From Providencia rettgeri (GTDB lineage Bacteria > Pseudomonadota > Gammaproteobacteria > Enterobacterales > Enterobacteriaceae): 64,000 nt of DNA. How positions within the stretch are numbered: position 1 is the first letter of the stretch; each line of letters begins with the position of its first letter. This document shows, one piece after another, positions 4,829 through 13,830 of this stretch. Under the pieces are notes generated by a model. The model was given only the letters and a program-made list of their open reading frames with translations, had not been told where the DNA came from and ran no database searches. The stretch covers positions 2,294,001 to 2,358,000 of the forward strand of contig NZ_CP059348.1 of NCBI RefSeq assembly GCF_013702265.1, given 5' to 3'. Made by a program: the position numbers and the translations under genes.

Positions 4829-6192
4829 CGACTCAACAAAATAGCGCAATTTACTCAGTCAGCAAGCTCAACCAAACGGTAAGAGAACTTCTTGATACCC
4901 AAATGGGACGAATTTGGTTAACGGCCGAAATTTCCAATTTTTCGCAGCCAAGTTCGGGACATTGGTACCTGACACTCAAAGATGATCGTGCCCAAGTTCG
5001 CGCGGCGATGTTCCGTGGGCAAAATACTCGCGTCACCTTCCGTCCACAAAATGGGCAGCAGGTGTTAGTCCGTGCCACTGTCACACTGTATGAGCCGCGT
5101 GGAGACTATCAGCTAATCATCGAAAGCATGCAACCCGCTGGTGAAGGTCTACTGCAACAGCGCTTCGAGCTACTCAAACAAACCCTTAATGCCCAAGGGT
5201 TATTTGATGTTATTCACAAGCAAGCCTTGCCATCTCCAGCAAAACGCGTGGGGATTATTACCTCTGCAACCGGTGCTGCCCTGCATGATATTTTAAATAT
5301 CCTACATCGCCGTGACCCATCCCTACCCGTGGTTATCTACCCGACAGCTGTTCAAGGGGATTTAGCGCCTGCGCAAATCGCCAGAGCCATCGAACTCGCA
5401 AACCTACGTAATGAATGCGACGTTCTCATTGTGGGGCGTGGTGGCGGTTCACTGGAAGATTTATGGGCATTCAATGAAGAGATCGTGGCACGTGCCATTT
5501 TTGCTAGCCGATTACCGATCATTAGCGCCGTTGGGCATGAAACGGATGTGACCATCGCCGATTATGTTGCCGATGTACGTGCACCTACGCCATCGGCAGC
5601 CGCGGAGCTTGTCAGTCGCAATCAAACCGAGATGCTTCGCCAATTGAAATCAGGGCAACAGCACCTAGAGATGGCGATGGATTATTATTTGGCGGCACAG
5701 CAGCAACGTTTCGCACGTCTTCAGCACCGTTTACAACAGCAACACCCGCAATTACGCCTTGCTCGGCAACAAAATCAGCTTTCAGCCTTACGCCAAAAAC
5801 TGACCAATGCCATCAGCCGCCAGCTACAATCGGCCACCTTTAAATTCGATAAAAACCAACGCCGCTTGATGCAAAATGACCTGCGCCCTCAATTACAACG
5901 CCAACAGCGCCAATTGCAGCAAACGCAGTATCATTTACAAAATATGCTGACTCAGTTAGTGAATAACTACCGCCAGCGTTTTGCTGTTGCCTGTTCCAAA
6001 ATGGAGGCTGTTAGCCCGCTTGCTACCCTCGCCCGAGGTTTCAGCATCAGCGAAACCGCTGAAGGCGCTGTATTGAAAAAAACCAGCCAAGTGAAATTAG
6101 GCCAACAGCTCAAAACTCGCTTAAATGATGGTTGGGTTGAAAGCCAAGTGACCAATATTCAGAAGGTTCGAGCGAAAAGATCAACCAAATAG
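4825..6192 (+). CDS. xseA: exodeoxyribonuclease VII large subunit
   Basis: 455-residue large subunit of exonuclease VII, the single-strand-specific nuclease that degrades DNA from both ends and needs several small subunits (XseB, not in the window). An N-terminal OB-fold spans about 15-105 ([19 protein letters not shown]), followed by the catalytic domain with the hallmark [17 protein letters not shown] at 203-219 and [17 protein letters not shown] long Gln/Arg-rich coiled coil covers about 270-385, and the C-terminal segment carries LARGFSI. Divergent from guaB. Its 3' end overlaps the convergent esterase gene by 12 bp. Confidence 0.97.
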
Positions 6193-7149
6193 CTGTTTTT
6201 TCAAATATTCCGCACCATCTAGAATGGCATTATCCGCCGTTGGCATGATGCGGGAGTAATGTAAAAAGGCATGCAGTGTCCCCGGATACATTCGGTATTC
6301 ACAAGGTATTTTATGCGATTGAAACGTTTGAAATAATGTCACGCTATCATCAAGTAACGGATCATATTCCGCACTCGCAATAAAACAAGGTGGAATATCT
6401 CGCGTAAGGTCATTATTAAACAAGCAATAGTAAGGCTCTTCACGGCTTCCTTGTTCGCCGAAGTAAGCATTGTCATACTCTTGGAGATCTTCTCGTCTTA
6501 ACCCATCCCATTCACCGCCATACAAACGGCGACTGCTGGAATCTTGTAAGCCATACAATCCATACCACAGTAAAACTGCACAAACATCACCACAGTAGAT
6601 TTGTTTATCCCGTAACCATAATACGGTAGCAAGGGATAACATCGCTCCAGCAGAGTCCCCCGCAAACCCAATGCGGTGCATATTCAACGAATATTTTTCA
6701 GCGTGTTGAGAATAAAATTGGCATACCGCTACCGCTTCCTCAATCGCTTGAGGATAACGAGCTTCAGGGGAAAGCGAATAATCAACACCTATCACAGTAC
6801 AGCCTGAATACAATGCTAATAAACGCATAATTCGGTCATGGGTATCGAGGTTACCGAGGATAAACCCGCCACCATGCAAATAAAATAGTGTAGCAGGCGT
6901 ATGTTCAATAGGATGATACACTCTCGTGACAACGTCACATTTAGCAGTTTTAACCGTCATGTCTTCAACACGAAAGAGCTCCGGAGCATTGGCATTCCAA
7001 TAACGACGATCTTCATTATAAGCAAGGCGCTGAGCTTCATAACTTCCGTCGGTTGGCTCCACCGATGTCTGTTGCTCATAGTATTGAATTACTTTTTGCA
7101 TCTCTGGCGAAATTAAATCAAGCACATTGATTTTATTGGTTGTTTTCAT
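6181..7149 (-). CDS. aes: acetyl esterase Aes (HSL-family hydrolase)
   Basis: 322-residue alpha/beta hydrolase of the hormone-sensitive-lipase family, very similar to E. coli Aes, which cleaves short-chain acyl esters and in E. coli also restrains the maltose activator MalT. The oxyanion-hole motif HGGG is at 92-95, the nucleophile elbow GDSAG at 164-168, the acid in DPLLDD near 262, and the catalytic His in LHAFLHY near 292. The start [12 protein letters not shown] was chosen because GTGGAGATTG precedes it at normal spacing; an upstream in-frame start at 7191 is less likely. It lies downstream of the receptor gene on the same strand, separated by a large inverted repeat, so co-transcription is uncertain. 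Confidence 0.92.
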
Positions 7150-7223
7150 TGCAATCTCCACATTCTTATTCATTGATTGTAATGAATCCAAAGGGACAAA
7201 CTGAGAGTGGCGTAGCCAATATT

Positions 7224-7308: not shown

Positions 7309-9570
7309 TCAGAAGCGCACTTGACCGCCAATCATATAACTGCGCCCTCTTCCCGTTTCATTATTTCTGCCACGTTCTTCCATCACTGCGCCAGAGTTTG
7401 CACGGTTTAACACGTCGGTGTAGTTTTCATTAGTGAGGTTATTAATCGCCATCATTAACTTGAAGTGTTTATTGATTTCATAGTCTGCATACAGGTCAAC
7501 TATAGTTGGCTGTTTTTCATACTTCTCCGTCATCGCATCCCCGTTCATGTCACCGTCAGGAATTGGGCTGATACGTTTAGATGGCCCCGTCCATGTCACT
7601 GTCGAGCCTACGGTCAGTTTTTCATCAAACAGGCGAACACCCGAATCTAAAGTCACATAATATTCAGGTAATTGGGTAAAGTCCCCTGCACTAAATACCG
7701 ATGTACTGTTGATTGATACCGGTTGTTTGCCAGACTCTTTGGTGTAAGAAACCATGGAGTAAAATACCCCAGCATCGTAGTTCGCTTGCAACTCGTAGCC
7801 GCGCAAATTGACATCCCGAGGATCGTTCACATACATATCTGCACGTTGGAAAATATCTGGATTTTCTTTATCCCACACATCGTCGTTAATTAAGCACCAA
7901 TCAAATTCTTCTTGAGAAGTTGCACGACATAGCATGAAGGATTTACTGGTAATGTAGTCCTTGATATGAGTGTGGAACCACAGCGCTTTCAGATTAAACT
8001 GGTCTCCTTCCACCACTAAATCTGGCTTAAAGCTATTAAAACCAATTTGCCAAGTTTGTGCTTTTTCCCCTTTTAGGAATGGGTTCATACTCTGACCGCC
8101 ATTTTGAGAGAAAAAGGCTTCTTGAGAGTTCGGCGCACGCATTGAATGCGCATAACTCACAAATGGCTGAAATTCAGGAATAATTTGTGCAGAAACTAAC
8201 ACTCCGGGGTTAATGCCACTTTCTCGCAGATTTAACGTACTCGCTTCTTGAGGGAAGCATTTCTCGGTTTCATCACAAGCGGGTTTATATCCTTGAACGC
8301 GATAATTTAAATAATTGAGGTCGAATGTAGCAGTATAAATATCGTACTGCGCCTCAAATTGCGTATACAAGCTCGTAATATCTTGTGTACCACTCGGTGA
8401 GAATGGGTTGTAAGTAATTGTGTTTGGATCTTCTACCGGTTTTGTGATTTTTTGGTATTTAGTCTTCATTAATTTCGAACCAACCTGCCACTTAAAATCA
8501 GTGTCGCCATAAGAAAAACGGCTGGTATTGGAAATATTAATACTGTCAGATTTGTTTTCTGATTCTGCGTCTTTTAATGCACCGCCAATTGGCTCTCCTT
8601 GGAATTTTTGAGTATTAAATCCATGGCTCGCCAGCACTTCCACATCAATCAATTCATTGATTGGCGTGTATTTATATTTAAGGTAATAATCTTCGCTGTT
8701 AATCTTACGGCTAGTTAATTTGTTTTGTAAAAATCGGCCGCTGAATTCGACTTCATGACTATCATTCGGTTTATATTTTAATTTAGTTAATTGAGATTGC
8801 GGTTTTTGTTTGAATGTCGGGTCGGTTGCAAATTCATCCGTATCAAATCCATCACCATTTTTATAACTGCCTGGGATATTGTGCCCACTCACAGCAATTA
8901 AGCCGCCAAAATAACCGTCACCCTCATTTAATAACGTTTTTCCCGCAACCGAAACCATGCCGTTATAGCCGAGTCCATTATCTCCCCAGCTCCCTTTGCT
9001 ACGTACTCCCCACAAATTATCTTTGAAAATCACATCATCAATAGATAAGGTCCGAAAGTTGGCGCTTCCCGCTAAGGCGTTAACACTGTTACTACCATTC
9101 AATTGCCCCTTTTCTACCTCAACTTCCACAATAAAGTTAGGGTCGATAAGTGAACCAAAGTCATTGCTCGGCTGCATGCCGTGAGTGAATTTACTCGGCG
9201 ATATTCCGTAATAGCTCTGTGTGACACCATCCACCATCATGTTTACGCGCCCAAAGCCACTCAGCCCGCGAATATTCACGTTGATGGTGCCTTGGCTCGC
9301 ATCCATTTGGGTATAGGTTCCGGGCATCGAACGGATAATTTTATCCATGGATTGTAATTTATTTTCGGTACCGACTGCGCTATAGGCCCCCGGTTTTTCC
9401 AAGGCTTTGACCAACGGCGTTTGTTTTTGTGCGCCCGACACTTTTAATTGGCTAAAATTAACCACATCATCTTTCTGCTTATTTGTCTGCTGTGTATTTT
9501 CAGACAAAGCGAAGCCGTGGAAGCTAGCGGAAATAGTCCCAGCTACCATGATTATTATTTTATTATTCAT
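7309..9570 (-). CDS. TonB-dependent outer-membrane receptor, heme/iron type
   Basis: 753-residue outer-membrane receptor. A signal peptide ends near residue 22 (ASFHGFA). A TonB-box-like stretch, DDVVNFSQLKVSG, is at 34-46, followed by a plug domain with NVNIRGLSGFGRVNMMVDGV at about 97-116, then a 22-strand-type barrel ending in Q-V-R-F with the expected terminal Phe. The barrel has heme-receptor-like MRAPNSQE and N-P-F-L-K-G-E boxes, but no His between them. Two close Cys pairs (CX5C and CX10C) suggest disulfide-locked outer loops. The start is set by CAGGA eight bases before the ATG at 9570. Last gene of the chaN/tonB/peptidase/receptor cluster. A heme or iron-chelate ligand is inferred. 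Confidence 0.88.
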   Translation of the reverse strand: MNNKIIIMVAGTISASFHGFALSENTQQTNKQKDDVVNFSQLKVSGAQKQTPLVKALEKPGAYSAVGTENKLQSMDKIIRSMPGTYTQMDASQGTINVNIRGLSGFGRVNMMVDGVTQSYYGISPSKFTHGMQPSNDFGSLIDPNFIVEVEVEKGQLNGSNSVNALAGSANFRTLSIDDVIFKDNLWGVRSKGSWGDNGLGYNGMVSVAGKTLLNEGDGYFGGLIAVSGHNIPGSYKNGDGFDTDEFATDPTFKQKPQSQLTKLKYKPNDSHEVEFSGRFLQNKLTSRKINSEDYYLKYKYTPINELIDVEVLASHGFNTQKFQGEPIGGALKDAESENKSDSINISNTSRFSYGDTDFKWQVGSKLMKTKYQKITKPVEDPNTITYNPFSPSGTQDITSLYTQFEAQYDIYTATFDLNYLNYRVQGYKPACDETEKCFPQEASTLNLRESGINPGVLVSAQIIPEFQPFVSYAHSMRAPNSQEAFFSQNGGQSMNPFLKGEKAQTWQIGFNSFKPDLVVEGDQFNLKALWFHTHIKDYITSKSFMLCRATSQEEFDWCLINDDVWDKENPDIFQRADMYVNDPRDVNLRGYELQANYDAGVFYSMVSYTKESGKQPVSINSTSVFSAGDFTQLPEYYVTLDSGVRLFDEKLTVGSTVTWTGPSKRISPIPDGDMNGDAMTEKYEKQPTIVDLYADYEINKHFKLMMAINNLTNENYTDVLNRANSGAVMEERGRNNETGRGRSYMIGGQVRF

Positions 9571-9619
9571 TAAACCATTCCTGTAAACGTACTGATAAAA
9601 CAGCCGCTCACATTGCAAA

Positions 9620-9707
9620 CGCAGAATAAATATGTTTTCTGCGAATAGGATTAGTTGTAAGTTTTTATAACTTCACAACTAATCCTTGGTAACCTTATTT
9701 TGGTTAC
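9620..9707. repeat. three consecutive hairpins between peptidase and receptor genes
   Basis: The gap holds three inverted repeats: CGCAGAA/TTCTGCG at 9620-9643, a 12-bp perfect stem AGGATTAGTTGT/ACAACTAATCCT at 9647-9686, and GTAACC/GGTTAC at 9689-9707. All lie downstream of the peptidase stop and upstream of the receptor start on the minus-strand transcript. None has a strong U-tract, so they resemble mRNA-processing or expression-balancing structures more than terminators. No Fur box or clear promoter was seen here. Confidence 0.55.
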
Positions 9708-9722
9708 TTATTATGGGTAACG

Positions 9723-11885
9723 CTATTTTAAATCTGGAAAATATTTCGCTTTATTTTCTAACATCAGAATAAAGCTATATTCTCTGGCAATATCATCCAA
9801 GGCATTAAAACGACCGGACTTTCCACCGTGTCCGGCATTCATATTGGTTTCTAATAACAATAAAGAATTGCCTTGTTTCAGATCACGCAGTTTTGCCACC
9901 CATTTTGCCGGTTCCCAATATTGTACTTGGGAATCATGTAACCCCGTGGTGACCAAAATATGCGGATAATGCTGAGCTTTGATATTGTCATACGGGCTAT
10001 AAGCTTTAATACGCCAGTAATCTTCCTCATTTTCAGGATTGCCCCACTCATCGTATTCACCGGTGGTCAGCGGAATAGATGGGTCTAGCATCGTCGTTAC
10101 GACATCCACGAATGGTACCGCAGAGACCACGCCTTCATACAAATCAGGTGTCATATTGACGACAGCACCCATCAGCAAGCCGCCAGCGCTACCGCCCATG
10201 GCATAGACATGGCCTTTTTCCCCATAGCCTTGTGCCAATAACGCGTTAGTCGCATCAATGAAGTCCGTAAAGGTATTCATTTTATGGACCGTTTTACCCT
10301 GAATATACCAATTCTTTCCTAAGTCCCCACCGCCACGAATATGGGCAATAGCATACACAAATCCACGGTCAAGCAAGGATAAGCGAGAAGAACTGAATGA
10401 CGGGTCGATACCATATCCATATGCACCGTAGCCGTAGACCAGAAGTGGGTTTTTACCTTGTTTGAAACTATCTTTACGGTAAACCAATGAAACCGGTACT
10501 TTCACCCCATCTTGGGCAGTGATCCAAATACGTTCGCTTTGATAATTCGCTTTATTGAAATCCTTCACTTCCTCTTGTTTTAATAGCTGTTTCTCTTGAG
10601 TCAGCATATTAATTTCATACACCGAGGATGGTGTTGTCATGGAGGAGTAGCCGTAGCGTAATTTATCAGTATCTGGCTCTGGGTTGTTACCAATCCACGC
10701 CATATAAGCTGGGTCATCAAAGCTCACAGAATGTTCTTTGTGGGTTAACCAACTAATTTGACGAATATTCACTAAGCCGTTTTGACGTTCTTCAATCACC
10801 AACCAGTTATTAAATAATGCAAAATCTTCAAGGTCTATATCATCGCGAGGTGCGATAAAACTCACCCATGGTGCCGTGGCATTATCCGCAATATACAACC
10901 CAAATAATGGATGCTGATGATTAGAACGAATATAGAATTTACCGTTGAAATGATCAGGGTAATATTCCACACCCGTTTTGCGAGGTTGTAGTACTACCGC
11001 ATCACGTTCCGGTTGGTTCGCATCCAGAAGGCGATATTCTGACGTTTCGGTGCTAGTGATCCCAATCAGAATATAATCTTTAGAGGTGGATTTCGCTAAA
11101 CTGACATAGTAAGTATCATCTTTCTCTTCATACACCAATTTATCAGTAGATTGCGCCGTTCCATATTGGTGTTTAACCACTTGATAAGGCAACAGTGTTT
11201 GTTTGTCTTTATTAACATAAAACAGTGTGCGATTATCATTTGCCCACACAATATTGCCGGAGGTGTTAGTTAGGACATTCTCTTGCCACTTTGCATCATC
11301 AACTTTGCGGAACGAAACCGCATAATCATTACGACCTTGGCGGTCTTCAGCAATCGCGATCGTGGTGTTATCTGGGGAAATGGCTAACGCCCCCATTCGG
11401 TAATATTCAGTGCCTTCCGCGCGTTGGTTACCATCAACCAAAACTGTCCATTCGCCATCACTATTAATAGGGCGTCTTTCATAAATGGAGTAGTTTTTAC
11501 CGGCGACAACGCGAGAACGGTATGTATAGCCATTGTAATTGTATGGCACCGACTCATCATCTTGCTTTACGCGAGATAATAATTCGTCGTAAATTTCCTG
11601 TTTTAATGGCTCACCCAATTCAAGCTGCTGCGTGGTATAGGTATTTTCTTGATTCAGATATTCAAGGATCTCTGGGGCTTCACGGTTATCGTCTCTTAAC
11701 CAATAATAGTTATCGACGCGCTGATCCCCATGGATAGTCATAGTGTGGGGCTGTTTTTTCGCTATTGGTGCTAGCATTTTGTCCTCCGCAGCACTGCTGG
11801 CCGCATATAACCCAAGTAGTGTAACCACGCAATAAGTGGTGATTCTATTACGCATGGTTTTATTATGTATGGTTTTATGACGCAT
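9723..11885 (-). CDS. oligopeptidase B-like S9 peptidase with signal peptide
   Basis: 720-residue prolyl-oligopeptidase-family enzyme closest in pattern to oligopeptidase B, which cuts peptides after basic residues. It has an N-terminal beta-propeller (about 70-430) and a C-terminal alpha/beta hydrolase with the nucleophile in GGSAGG near 565, the acid in LHDSQVQYW near 650 and the His in NAGHGGKSG near 686. Unlike cytoplasmic E. coli PtrB it begins with a signal peptide (ITTYCVVTLLGLYAASSAAE), so it should act in the periplasm. It starts 12 bp after the TonB-like gene and precedes the receptor gene, which implies a role in handling the imported ligand. The first 39 bases contain a near-duplicated 15-bp unit, so ATG 11855 is an alternative start. 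Confidence 0.88.
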   Translation of the reverse strand: MRHKTIHNKTMRNRITTYCVVTLLGLYAASSAAEDKMLAPIAKKQPHTMTIHGDQRVDNYYWLRDDNREAPEILEYLNQENTYTTQQLELGEPLKQEIYDELLSRVKQDDESVPYNYNGYTYRSRVVAGKNYSIYERRPINSDGEWTVLVDGNQRAEGTEYYRMGALAISPDNTTIAIAEDRQGRNDYAVSFRKVDDAKWQENVLTNTSGNIVWANDNRTLFYVNKDKQTLLPYQVVKHQYGTAQSTDKLVYEEKDDTYYVSLAKSTSKDYILIGITSTETSEYRLLDANQPERDAVVLQPRKTGVEYYPDHFNGKFYIRSNHQHPLFGLYIADNATAPWVSFIAPRDDIDLEDFALFNNWLVIEERQNGLVNIRQISWLTHKEHSVSFDDPAYMAWIGNNPEPDTDKLRYGYSSMTTPSSVYEINMLTQEKQLLKQEEVKDFNKANYQSERIWITAQDGVKVPVSLVYRKDSFKQGKNPLLVYGYGAYGYGIDPSFSSSRLSLLDRGFVYAIAHIRGGGDLGKNWYIQGKTVHKMNTFTDFIDATNALLAQGYGEKGHVYAMGGSAGGLLMGAVVNMTPDLYEGVVSAVPFVDVVTTMLDPSIPLTTGEYDEWGNPENEEDYWRIKAYSPYDNIKAQHYPHILVTTGLHDSQVQYWEPAKWVAKLRDLKQGNSLLLLETNMNAGHGGKSGRFNALDDIAREYSFILMLENKAKYFPDLK

Positions 11886-11897
11886 GGTGAGTCCAAT

Positions 11898-12707
11898 CTA
11901 TTTATCATTAAGAGTAAAATCAATAGGTAACCTAACCGTTATCCGTCCATTCTTGAGAATTTCTGCTGGCGGTACGGGTAACGGCGCCGCGCGAGATAAC
12001 ACCTGCTGCGCTTCTTTGTCTAAAGAACGTGTGCCTGATGAGTTCACTAAACTGCTATCAAGTAAAAAACCTTGGCTATCTACCGTAAACATCACCACCG
12101 GTTTCCCTATGCGGTTACGCCTTCCTGCATCTTCAGGGTAACGTTTATATTTATTCAATTTTCCAAGCACCATCGCTTCCCACTGTTTTTGTAGGCTATC
12201 AAGGGCTTCGGACTGGCTATTAAGTTCCGCAGCAATTTGCTGGCTTTGGACGAGTGCCGCCGCATCGCTGGTCACTGGCGCATCGCTGGCTTTCGAATCT
12301 GTGGTTTGCACCTTCTTCACTTGCTGCTGCTCTTGTTTCTGTTTTTTTAACTCGGGCTTTGGTTTTTTCGCCGTTGTTTTCGTCAACTGCACTTCCGCTT
12401 GCTCATTAACAGGCAATGGGGGAATAATGGCTTCTTCTGCTTGCGCTTTATGGGATTCACTCGCCACAGCCAGCTCTTGAGTTTGACCAATATTCACTTC
12501 CGTTAATTGTTTAGCTTGTGCTTCGATAGATAATTCCATCACCACTGAAGGGGGCGGCAGTGACTCCTCCCATCGCGCATTGTGTGTTATCCAGATAAAA
12601 AAACCCACAATGACAATATGCAGTGCCACGGCTAAAACCAGCCAGCCGCCCATTTTGGAGGTTCTACTCACATACCCACTTTCAAACGTTATTGTGCTCA
12701 TATTCAT
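11898..12707 (-). CDS. TonB-family energy transducer (HasB-like)
   Basis: 269-residue TonB paralogue. It has one N-terminal inner-membrane helix (WLVLAVALHIVIVGFFIWI, about 20-38) and a periplasmic spacer rich in Glu, Pro, Lys and Gln, including KKPKPELKKQKQE. The C-terminal TonB domain has the family pattern L-x-K-Y-K-R-Y-P, IGKPVVMFTVDSQG, LDKEAQQVL and P-I-D-F. It couples proton-motive force to outer-membrane receptors, presumably the one encoded two genes downstream. No exbB/exbD are nearby, so it must borrow them. The start was placed after the Fur box; ATG 12701 is an alternative start. The only other in-frame ATG upstream (12755) would lie within the promoter. Confidence 0.88.
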   Translation of the reverse strand: MNMSTITFESGYVSRTSKMGGWLVLAVALHIVIVGFFIWITHNARWEESLPPPSVVMELSIEAQAKQLTEVNIGQTQELAVASESHKAQAEEAIIPPLPVNEQAEVQLTKTTAKKPKPELKKQKQEQQQVKKVQTTDSKASDAPVTSDAAALVQSQQIAAELNSQSEALDSLQKQWEAMVLGKLNKYKRYPEDAGRRNRIGKPVVMFTVDSQGFLLDSSLVNSSGTRSLDKEAQQVLSRAAPLPVPPAEILKNGRITVRLPIDFTLNDK

Positions 12708-12728
12708 CTTACGTGCTTTTACAGAGTT

Positions 12729-12747
12729 GCAAATGATAATTAATAAC
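12729..12747 (-). promoter_or_regulatory. Fur box upstream of the TonB-like gene
   Basis: GCAAATGATAATTAATAAC matches the 19-bp Fur consensus GATAATGATAATCATTATC at about 14 positions. It ends 22 bp upstream of the chosen TonB start, so it could overlap a promoter for tonB-peptidase-receptor. Confidence 0.65.
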
Positions 12748-12837
12748 GAATGCAAATGGAAATTATTTGTAAATAAATGTGATGATTACTTCACAAAATT
12801 AACGATTTTAAATCATCATATTGCTCGCACTTGTTGA

Positions 12838-13731
12838 TTATTTCGGCGTGTACCACACATAATCTGCATGCAAGTTATCGATTTCCTCGCCTTGCTCCGA
12901 AAGAATCAATACTTTCAATGACTCATCTGGCGCTAAATCGAGTACATGTAACGGCACACCAATCGCTCGCGTTGCATGATAACCCCCTGCAAATAGCAAT
13001 GCGGGTGCCGGAGCATCCAATAATCCTTGAGCCATCGCCCTATCTCTTAGTTGCTGGATCACCAGCATCTTTTCCGCTTGTTTATCATCCAACTCACCAT
13101 TGTGTGAGCGTTTAATGGTTTCGCTGATCAGTTCCTGAATAACGGGCTGCGTTGAATGTGTTCCAGTGAGCGTAGGCGGATTGTCATAAGCCTTCAGTAC
13201 AGCATCTCGGTTAATATTCGCCGCTAAAACTGGGGATGGCTGAGCCAGTAAATACTTCACGAGTTCCCCATATTGCGCCCACGGCCAACCACTATTCCAA
13301 TGTATAACCTCTTGCAGTTTTTCATCCCGAATATACGGGTTCCCCTGCATCTGTTTTTGAACATTGTTTACTCGACTTTGTTGATCAGGGGTAAGCATTT
13401 CCAGTAACACCGCACCTTGGGGGCGTATTTTCTGCATTTCTTGGGCGACCCACTGCTCGATTTGATGATGGTAAATATTGTCGTGTTTCTCCCCGACAAT
13501 CACGCGAGGTGAGGCAGCAAGCTCTTGAATTAACTGCTGAGGAGTGATGGATTTGCCCGAATCTAAATCAATGATTTTGCCGGTTTGTGTGAGTTGGGGA
13601 TCCAGTTGTTGGGCGGGTTTTGGTGTTTGTGAGGTACATCCTAACTGTGTGAAACTCAAAACGAAAAGCATCCCTAAACTCAACAGTGAGGGTTTTTTCG
13701 TTAAATAATTCAAAGAACGTGCTGATATCAT
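12838..13731 (-). CDS. ChaN-like heme-binding lipoprotein
   Basis: 297-residue ChaN/Tiki-superfamily protein. An N-terminal signal helix (LLSLGMLFVLSFTQLGC) ends in a somewhat atypical lipobox with Cys near residue 32, so a lipoprotein is likely. The domain starts at SPRVIVGEKHDNIYHHQIEQW, with the family Glu-His pair, and continues through VLLEML, HWNSGWPWAQYGELVKYLLAQP and GGYHATRAIGVPLHV. Campylobacter ChaN (Cj0177) binds two stacked hemes and is encoded beside a TonB-dependent receptor, as here. Start: ATG 13731 is preceded by GGAAAAG at good spacing, whereas ATG 13743 lacks a ribosome site. First gene of the putative operon, behind a near-perfect Fur box. Confidence 0.85.
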   Translation of the reverse strand: MISARSLNYLTKKPSLLSLGMLFVLSFTQLGCTSQTPKPAQQLDPQLTQTGKIIDLDSGKSITPQQLIQELAASPRVIVGEKHDNIYHHQIEQWVAQEMQKIRPQGAVLLEMLTPDQQSRVNNVQKQMQGNPYIRDEKLQEVIHWNSGWPWAQYGELVKYLLAQPSPVLAANINRDAVLKAYDNPPTLTGTHSTQPVIQELISETIKRSHNGELDDKQAEKMLVIQQLRDRAMAQGLLDAPAPALLFAGGYHATRAIGVPLHVLDLAPDESLKVLILSEQGEEIDNLHADYVWYTPK

Positions 13732-13772
13732 TATCTTTTCCATATAGTGACTTTGAAGTCATTCAAAATACA

Positions 13773-13791
13773 GATAATGATAATCATTTTC
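13773..13791 (-). promoter_or_regulatory. near-perfect Fur box upstream of chaN-like gene
   Basis: GATAATGATAATCATTTTC matches the 19-bp Fur consensus at 18 positions. It lies 41 bp upstream of the chosen ChaN start. This is the strongest regulatory evidence that the minus-strand cluster is repressed by Fe-Fur under iron sufficiency. Confidence 0.88.
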
Positions 13792-13798
13792 AAATAAA

Positions 13799-13830
13799 AA
13801 AGACTCCCATTAACCACAATGGAAGTCTTT
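13799..13830 (-). terminator. Rho-independent terminator after maeB
   Basis: On the minus strand AAAGACTTCCATT pairs with AATGGGAGTCTTT, one mismatch, around GTGGTT, followed by TTTTATTTG. It ends the maeB transcript and directly abuts the Fur box, insulating the iron locus. Confidence 0.8.

Follow-up and report, generated by a model that had tools for sequence, protein, structure and literature searches.

A Fur-box-preceded ChaN–TonB–receptor series of Providencia and its relatives, with an exported oligopeptidase B or a YncE-like propeller as its fourth gene

Four genes behind a Fur box

We analysed a 64,000-nt window of the genome of Providencia rettgeri (a single contig of 4.02 Mb, NZ_CP059348.1; window G000:C1:2294001-2358000), and all positions given below are those of the window. 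Four genes stand in series on its minus strand and encode, in order, a ChaN-type lipoprotein, a TonB paralogue, an oligopeptidase B (OpdB) with a signal peptide and a TonB-dependent receptor of the haem/haemoglobin type. Domain searches bear out this content and order, which a preliminary description had read from the sequence. TonB and OpdB are 12 nt apart, and OpdB and the receptor 149 nt.

The first gene (12838-13743, 301 aa) has both marks of a ChaN lipoprotein, a PF04187 domain (126.6 bits against a cut-off of 27.7) and a lipobox, TQLGC, and matches Protein Data Bank (PDB) entry 2g5g (E 9.8e-30). Its first motif, GEKH, is kept in 63 of 64 ChaN proteins and its second, GGYH, in 56 of 64 by the pattern used. 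The TonB paralogue (PF03544, 49.2 bits; the genome has four TonB_C matches, this one included) is 269 aa long from its first plausible start at ATG 12707 (11898-12707); a longer open reading frame (ORF) runs from TTG 12755. OpdB (9723-11885, 720 aa) has the complete S9A domain pair, PF02897 and PF00326. By eye and by hydropathy its N-terminus resembles a Sec signal peptide at about residues 11-33, as do those of its relatives, in agreement with the preliminary description; apart from this exported copy, the genome has no OpdB match at E <= 0.001. The receptor (7309-9573, 754 aa) starts at Met 9573 rather than at TTG 9618, and its plug (PF07715) and barrel (PF00593) domains both score over their cut-offs.

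The minus-strand Fur box 5′ of ChaN (13773-13791) agrees with 18 of the 19 positions of the consensus, as the description had claimed. Shuffled windows give an expectation of 0.00 such matches, and the exact 19-mer occurs once in the genome; with this box in its promoter region, the series carries the mark of a Fur regulon member. Across the loci described in the next section, which were read in two sets, ChaN is preceded by a Fur-like site, at a limit of four mismatches, in 27/28 loci from the first set and 25/34 from the second (52/62 together), against 0.3-0.5% of mononucleotide-shuffled stretches. The second count covers 34 of 36 loci, leaving out L148 (contig end too near) and L161 (no ChaN in the stretch), and all Fur-site counts include related rows and are thus not independent. 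At the four loci of genus g160, no Fur-like site was found within 250 bases 5′ of ChaN. The weaker box that had been placed before TonB exists as a minus-strand 14/19 site (12729-12747) and is kept less regularly: at most four mismatches are seen in 7/28 and 7/35 loci of the two sets, and at most five in 19/28 of the first (2.4% of shuffles) and just 13/35 of the second. At the four-mismatch limit, Fur-like sites were found at OpdB in 0/54 loci and at the receptor in 1/64.

A terminator-like hairpin with a T run (13799-13830, minus strand) stands behind the maeB-type gene, and a new transcription unit therefore probably starts with ChaN. The case for this hairpin is its position: the terminator scan gave 8 sites for the region where shuffles averaged 6.4, and neither the promoter nor the terminator scan of the region gave an excess over shuffles. 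The spacer between OpdB and the receptor (9574-9722, minus strand) folds much better than 200 shuffles (z -7.2), with no Rfam match and no terminator call of such length. It ends at its 3′ side in a 7-bp hairpin, GTGAGCG/CGTTTAC, immediately 5′ of AGGAATGG. All 15 Providencia rows keep this pairing, L057 by a double change (GTGAGCA/TGTTTAC), and the spacer may be a leader through which translation of the receptor is controlled.

Distribution of the series and exchange of its fourth gene

The series adjoining maeB was read in 22 Providencia congeners, the same-species genome L180 and the window, and is there in all 24, so that its order is beyond chance. The receptor gene is damaged in four of the 22 congeners, G010 (L064, L138, L139), G011 (L065), G013 (L062) and G015 (L053). 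Two of these receptors carry inserts, one of ~33 kb that is phage-like with a Mu-like look and one that is IS1-like (both named by eye), and two have in-frame stops. OpdB is damaged in G009 and G011 and, near its 3′ end, in G020, and TonB has a frame break in G013; because maeB is also broken in G011, the quality of that assembly is doubtful.

The receptor has matches at E <= 1e-100 in 46 of 392 genomes of the family (the window's own included) and 20 of 154 genera. At class level, matches at E <= 1e-50 were found in 2 of 369 genomes, the window's own and G729 (30%). We read the neighbourhoods in all 41 non-Providencia genomes with a receptor match at E <= 1e-100 and in the 24 Providencia genomes, which makes 65 genomes of 20 genera in one family; the locus of G404 runs over contig ends and was read as two stretches. 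The comparative search that the preliminary description had called for found the order ChaN-TonB-OpdB-receptor in 32 of the non-Providencia genomes (12 genera) and thus, with Providencia, in 56 genomes of 13 genera. The other 9 genomes, from 7 genera (g2, g43, g44, g109, g168, g176 and g178), have ChaN-TonB-receptor followed by an exported YncE-like propeller. Each locus therefore has exactly one fourth gene, with no genome of the 65 having both and none having neither. The two do not occupy the same place, OpdB sitting between TonB and the receptor and the YncE-like gene after the receptor.

Conservation in 13 genera shows that the peptidase is a part of the system. The scarcity of Fur-like sites at OpdB and the receptor, and the structured spacer between them, would suit genes that are co-located without a common function. 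The order is kept across the 13 genera at different chromosomal sites, with a single fourth gene at every locus read, and we regard such fortuitous neighbours as refuted for practical purposes.

The YncE-like proteins of these loci form a group of their own. They are 63-90% identical to that of L069 and ~30% identical to other YncE-type copies; three that were scored reach 149.5-162.3 bits, under the NF052280 cut-off of 400, and one matches PDB entry 3vgz (E 1e-25). A YncE-type match (E <= 1e-20) is absent in 27 of the 33 OpdB-type genomes searched, one of the 33 being from Providencia. The other six (five of g26, one of g113) have YncE-type copies elsewhere, at 29-32%.

OpdB was present in all 42 genomes searched for it. 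Seven genera (g26, g36, g41, g106, g113, g153 and g160) have a second OpdB besides the one in the module, and the second copies that we read lack a signal peptide. Only the in-module copy was found in g1, g13, g117, g140, g162 and g172, and the YncE-type genomes have an OpdB elsewhere only. The in-module proteins form one clade, apart from OpdBs without a signal peptide, with support of 100/99 in a tree of 43 rows and a Shimodaira–Hasegawa-like approximate likelihood ratio test (SH-aLRT) value of 100 in one of 76 rows made by a quick method. The larger tree lacks L161, which a contig end splits, L165 and L166, whose ORF escaped the script, and L174, where the anchor motif was not found, as well as L180 and most congeners, so that g140 and g113 are not placed; g153 (L178) lies on a long branch. 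Since the exported copies branch apart from the others and occur alongside a second OpdB in seven genera, we reject a one-off gain of a signal peptide by an ordinary PtrB.

Two OpdB-type peptidases from other families of the order, L127 and L129, have lipobox-like N-termini and do not belong to the in-module clade, which makes more than one origin of exported OpdBs probable. Nor is export enough to make the module: exported OpdBs also occur in another family of the order (L096/L135, L119/L136), and among the ORFs read beside them we recognised neither a receptor nor TonB nor ChaN.

The receptor alignment and tree comprise 38 loci; the four damaged receptors and near-duplicates are left out. 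YncE-type receptors lie in three places among the OpdB-type ones, and the supported branches force three changes. In the ChaN tree (33 rows), three is the fewest changes in all but the bootstrap tails, and supported branches force two. The fourth slot has been exchanged with a YncE-type propeller more than once, and the trees need three exchanges. Across the three backgrounds, similarity is 61-79% for the YncE-like proteins, against 47-57% for the receptors and 43-54% for the ChaNs. Movement of the fourth gene fits this higher similarity, and a slower rate of change would do so too.

Beside the receptor, an Aes-type acetyl esterase gene (6181-7191; PRK10162, above cut-off) lies between it and xseA. 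It has a tblastn match in 3 of the 22 congeners (G008, G014 and G016) and in the same-species genome L180.

The exported peptidase, the receptor and the likely ligand

OpdB has the features by which an oligopeptidase B is recognised: the S9A domains, a catalytic triad (S566/D651/H686) and the S1 glutamate, E610. Its best PDB relatives include 7ywp and 7zjz, the OpdB of Serratia proteamaculans (PMC9917282), and S566, D651, E610 and H686 correspond to S532, D617, E576 and H652 of that enzyme, whose roles are described in the same source. Among 51 aligned in-module OpdBs, the Ser, Asp and S1 Glu are kept in 51/51 and the His in 50/51, the remaining row having a gap. Signal-peptide-like N-termini were found on 24 of 24 in-module OpdBs of the first set and 28 of 31 of the second, where the three others are one split gene and two not captured by the script. 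As these N-termini persist despite quite different sequences, export seems to be under selection. With signal peptide, triad and S1 Glu all conserved, in-module OpdB is probably an active, trypsin-like, periplasmic peptidase. Exported S9 enzymes are in themselves not new, signal peptides having been predicted for 20% of prokaryotic POP homologues (PMC4522959).

The peptidase and the propeller invite different views of what the fourth slot is for. The module may need a periplasmic beta-propeller, as carrier, chaperone or scaffold, with OpdB kept for its N-terminal PF02897 propeller, the YncE-like protein its equivalent and the peptidase activity secondary. The interchange of the two proteins, never found together at the loci read, and the three changes on both the receptor and the ChaN tree speak for this view. 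The Ser, Asp and S1 Glu would not be expected to stay invariant in 51 proteins if catalysis were dispensable, however, and the two genes occupy different places in the operon; we consider this explanation unlikely.

Substrates of OpdB are usually limited to ~30 residues. They have been described as oligopeptides and low-molecular-weight peptides (PMC12114661), so a folded carrier protein is unlikely as a direct substrate. The trypsin-like pocket would also suit a role in defence, in which an exported OpdB induced by iron limitation destroys cationic host or bacterial peptides at the receptor, with no part in iron delivery. E. coli OpdB reportedly acts on proline-rich antimicrobial peptides (Mattiuzzo 2014), and damage to the receptor in four congeners recalls receptors exploited by phages or bacteriocins. 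Two of those four carry mobile-element inserts, which may be random, however, and defence leaves unexplained both the linkage to ChaN, TonB and the receptor over 13 genera and the replacement of the enzyme by a protein without a peptidase domain. We therefore hold defence to be quite improbable.

For the receptor, the closest curated subfamily is haem/haemoglobin TIGR01785 (E 6.5e-75, residues 86-769 of the longer ORF), and matches to the TbpA family and TIGR01786 were also found. A PDB search gave 14 matches at E <= 0.001, the best being 9oaa_T, a TonB-dependent receptor and perhaps one for hemophilin (4.9e-62), and the next HasR (1.7e-29); the closest named homologue, in a search whose database may lack the record of the window itself, is from P. 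alcalifaciens (96%). The receptor has a plug His132-Gly, the boxes SMRAPN and NPFL, and Cys433 and Cys439, which are invariant in the alignment. The plug-apex His-Gly is kept in 38 of 38 aligned receptors and aligns with HasR position 189, while the His at HasR position 603 is without an equivalent; H189 and H603 are the haem ligands of HasR. HemS-type domains are encoded elsewhere in the genome. We take haem, or a haem-bearing peptide or protein, as the likely ligand and our first choice; the label haem-type is itself a family resemblance only.

Taken together, we favour a TonB-dependent uptake module that is repressed by Fur, brings its own TonB and serves a haem-type ligand, which the product of the fourth slot handles or trims in the periplasm, and put the probability of this reading at about one half. 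Iron starvation would lift Fur from the site 5′ of ChaN. As its family suggests, the receptor would then bind a haem-type iron source and transport it through the outer membrane, powered by the TonB of the locus. ChaN, a lipoprotein of a haem-binding family, may buffer or receive the ligand at the outer membrane, and the fourth slot would supply a periplasmic protein dealing with imported material. In 13 genera this is a diverged, exported OpdB, whose triad and Arg/Lys pocket are kept and which would cut a short basic peptide that arrives with the ligand or blocks it; in 7 genera a YncE-like propeller holds the slot. Either the ligand takes a form that needs no cutting in some lineages, or the propeller part is what counts.

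Several observations weigh against this reading. The receptor scores 252.9 bits against TIGR01785, below the cut-off of 316.85, so that the earlier naming of a heme-type receptor stands as closest curated family and not as membership. Haem receptors carry a His between their FRAP and NPNL boxes, at the position of HasR H603, and 37 of 38 aligned receptors have no such His. Seven genera carry a propeller without a peptidase domain, which means that peptide cutting is not obligatory or universal to the module. No OpdB or YncE-like gene adjoins the distant receptor homologues in G021 (a second copy, 34%), G103 and G729; for the G021 second copy (L072) and G103 (L071), none of the other module genes was found within 19.9 kb. 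The receptor and OpdB do not always share a history, and the receptor can move alone: in G444 (L160), of the genus of G047, OpdB and ChaN hardly differ from the ones in the rest of the genus, and the receptor groups with that of G404, from another genus. Distances between module genes do correlate (r 0.81-0.90, 24 loci), a figure confounded by species descent. Finally, CtuA of Campylobacter jejuni, which has a ChaN partner, has been described as a receptor for transferrin/lactoferrin (PMC4178425), and the presence of ChaN therefore does not single out haem as the ligand.

By analogy with CtuA, transferrin-type iron would be the main alternative ligand. Under this view the receptor takes iron from a transferrin- or lactoferrin-type protein or another non-haem source, and OpdB only recycles peptide debris. 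The TbpA and TIGR01786 matches, the missing His and the CtuA precedent are in its favour, but the closest curated subfamily is haem/haemoglobin, the plug His is common with HasR in 38/38, ChaN belongs to a family named as haem-binding, and a profile search found no ATP-binding cassette (ABC) transporter domain in six scanned proteins of or adjoining the locus. We judge non-haem uptake to be distinctly improbable.

One further locus stands apart from those above. In G729 (L205, another family of the class), a receptor with an N-terminal extension, ChaN and TonB are in series beside a FecR-like gene (FecR named by eye), which we read as the core trio under another kind of regulation.

The favoured uptake reading agrees in part with the preliminary description, which proposed a peptide- or protein-bound ligand that is cut in the periplasm. 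The Fur site, the single module, a haem-family receptor with a TonB paralogue and an exported, apparently active peptidase bear the description out; the bound state of the ligand and its cutting stay conjectural, and the YncE swap and the short-peptide substrates of OpdB limit them. Few cases of periplasmic processing of TonB-dependent ligands are known to us. Thirteen genera of one family keep, in a Fur-controlled receptor operon, an exported paralogue of a peptidase whose copy in relatives lacks a signal peptide, and this suggests an unnoticed processing step for an iron-bearing molecule, probably haem. The exchange of OpdB and YncE-like genes amounts to an experiment made by nature. Through it, two orphan periplasmic proteins become linked to a single step in the uptake of iron or haem, and what YncE-type proteins, ChaN and exported OpdB do becomes open to test.

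Comparison with known systems

Two known pairings each resemble part of the module: in C. jejuni, ChaN is paired with the TonB-dependent receptor CtuA (Cj0178), a ChaN-family lipoprotein coupled to a receptor as here, and in E. coli the TonB-dependent receptor YncD is paired with the exported propeller YncE, like our YncE-type loci. We know of no peptidase or propeller at the C. jejuni locus. The differences are that CtuA serves transferrin/lactoferrin iron by its published description (PMC4178425), unlike the ligand favoured for the Providencia locus, and that the module YncE-like proteins are a subfamily separate from E. coli YncE, as their ~30% identity and NF052280 scores indicate. In a published list of the Fur regulon, yncE stands with the proteins of unknown function (PMC7157518).

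Compared with the HasR/HasB system of Serratia marcescens, the locus has no recognised hemophore gene and no equivalent of His603, and ChaN and OpdB are extra. HasB is the TonB paralogue of the HasR system; an own TonB paralogue, similarity to HasR (E 1.7e-29) and an equivalent of plug His189 are what the two share. In the Acinetobacter baumannii hemO cluster, a haem locus has the receptor HphR together with a TonB-related gene, as here, and also Slam and hemophilin (PMC8560813). No Slam adjoins the Providencia receptor, and the only PF04575 (Slam) match of the genome lies ~300 kb away beside another receptor, so we rejected membership in the Slam/hemophilin type. A separate hemophilin/type XI-like cluster does occur in the same genome outside the window (G000:C1:1996373-2002546; L140:2374-8547). 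It encodes an exported protein of 255 aa, a Slam of 488 aa, a TonB-dependent receptor of 1013 aa and a TonB of 268 aa, all but the Slam and TonB named by eye.

Relative to PtrB/OpdB without a signal peptide, in-module OpdB has the same domains, triad and S1 glutamate, but it is exported, belongs to a separate clade and scores 934.5 bits against the NCBIfam equivalog PRK10115, below the cut-off of 1313. The preliminary description found a peptidase in such a locus unfamiliar. In searches limited to open-licence PMC papers we came across no published operon of exported OpdB, ChaN and receptor; ptrB appears there among genes that respond to iron in Vibrio cholerae and to plasma in Yersinia pseudotuberculosis, with no receptor operon in those passages.

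That description had missed the closest organisation, the Fus operon of Pectobacterium, with its FusA receptor, FusB TonB homologue, FusC periplasmic M16 protease and FusD ABC transporter (PMC7593965, PMC13253070). As here, one iron-uptake operon unites a receptor, its own TonB homologue and a periplasmic protease; an operon-borne TonB homologue and an exported protease are both found at the Providencia locus. The peptidase here is instead an S9 oligopeptidase B and not an M16 enzyme, ChaN stands in place of FusD, and the structure of FusA, 4ZGV (PMC12702245), is not among the 14 PDB matches of the receptor. Membership in the Fus system was rejected on receptor, protease class, the fourth gene and the lack of an ABC domain in the four proteins. 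A second, independently built import system with Fus-like logic is a tentative idea that we hold to be rather unlikely: the receptor and its TonB would import an iron or haem ligand with a short basic peptide attached, and exported OpdB, or a YncE-like protein without cutting, would free the iron part for ChaN. If it is true, the Fur-regulated YncE-type propellers gain a role as handlers of TonB-dependent-receptor ligands. Among known systems, the ferredoxin-import operon Fus is the nearest in logic to the module described here.

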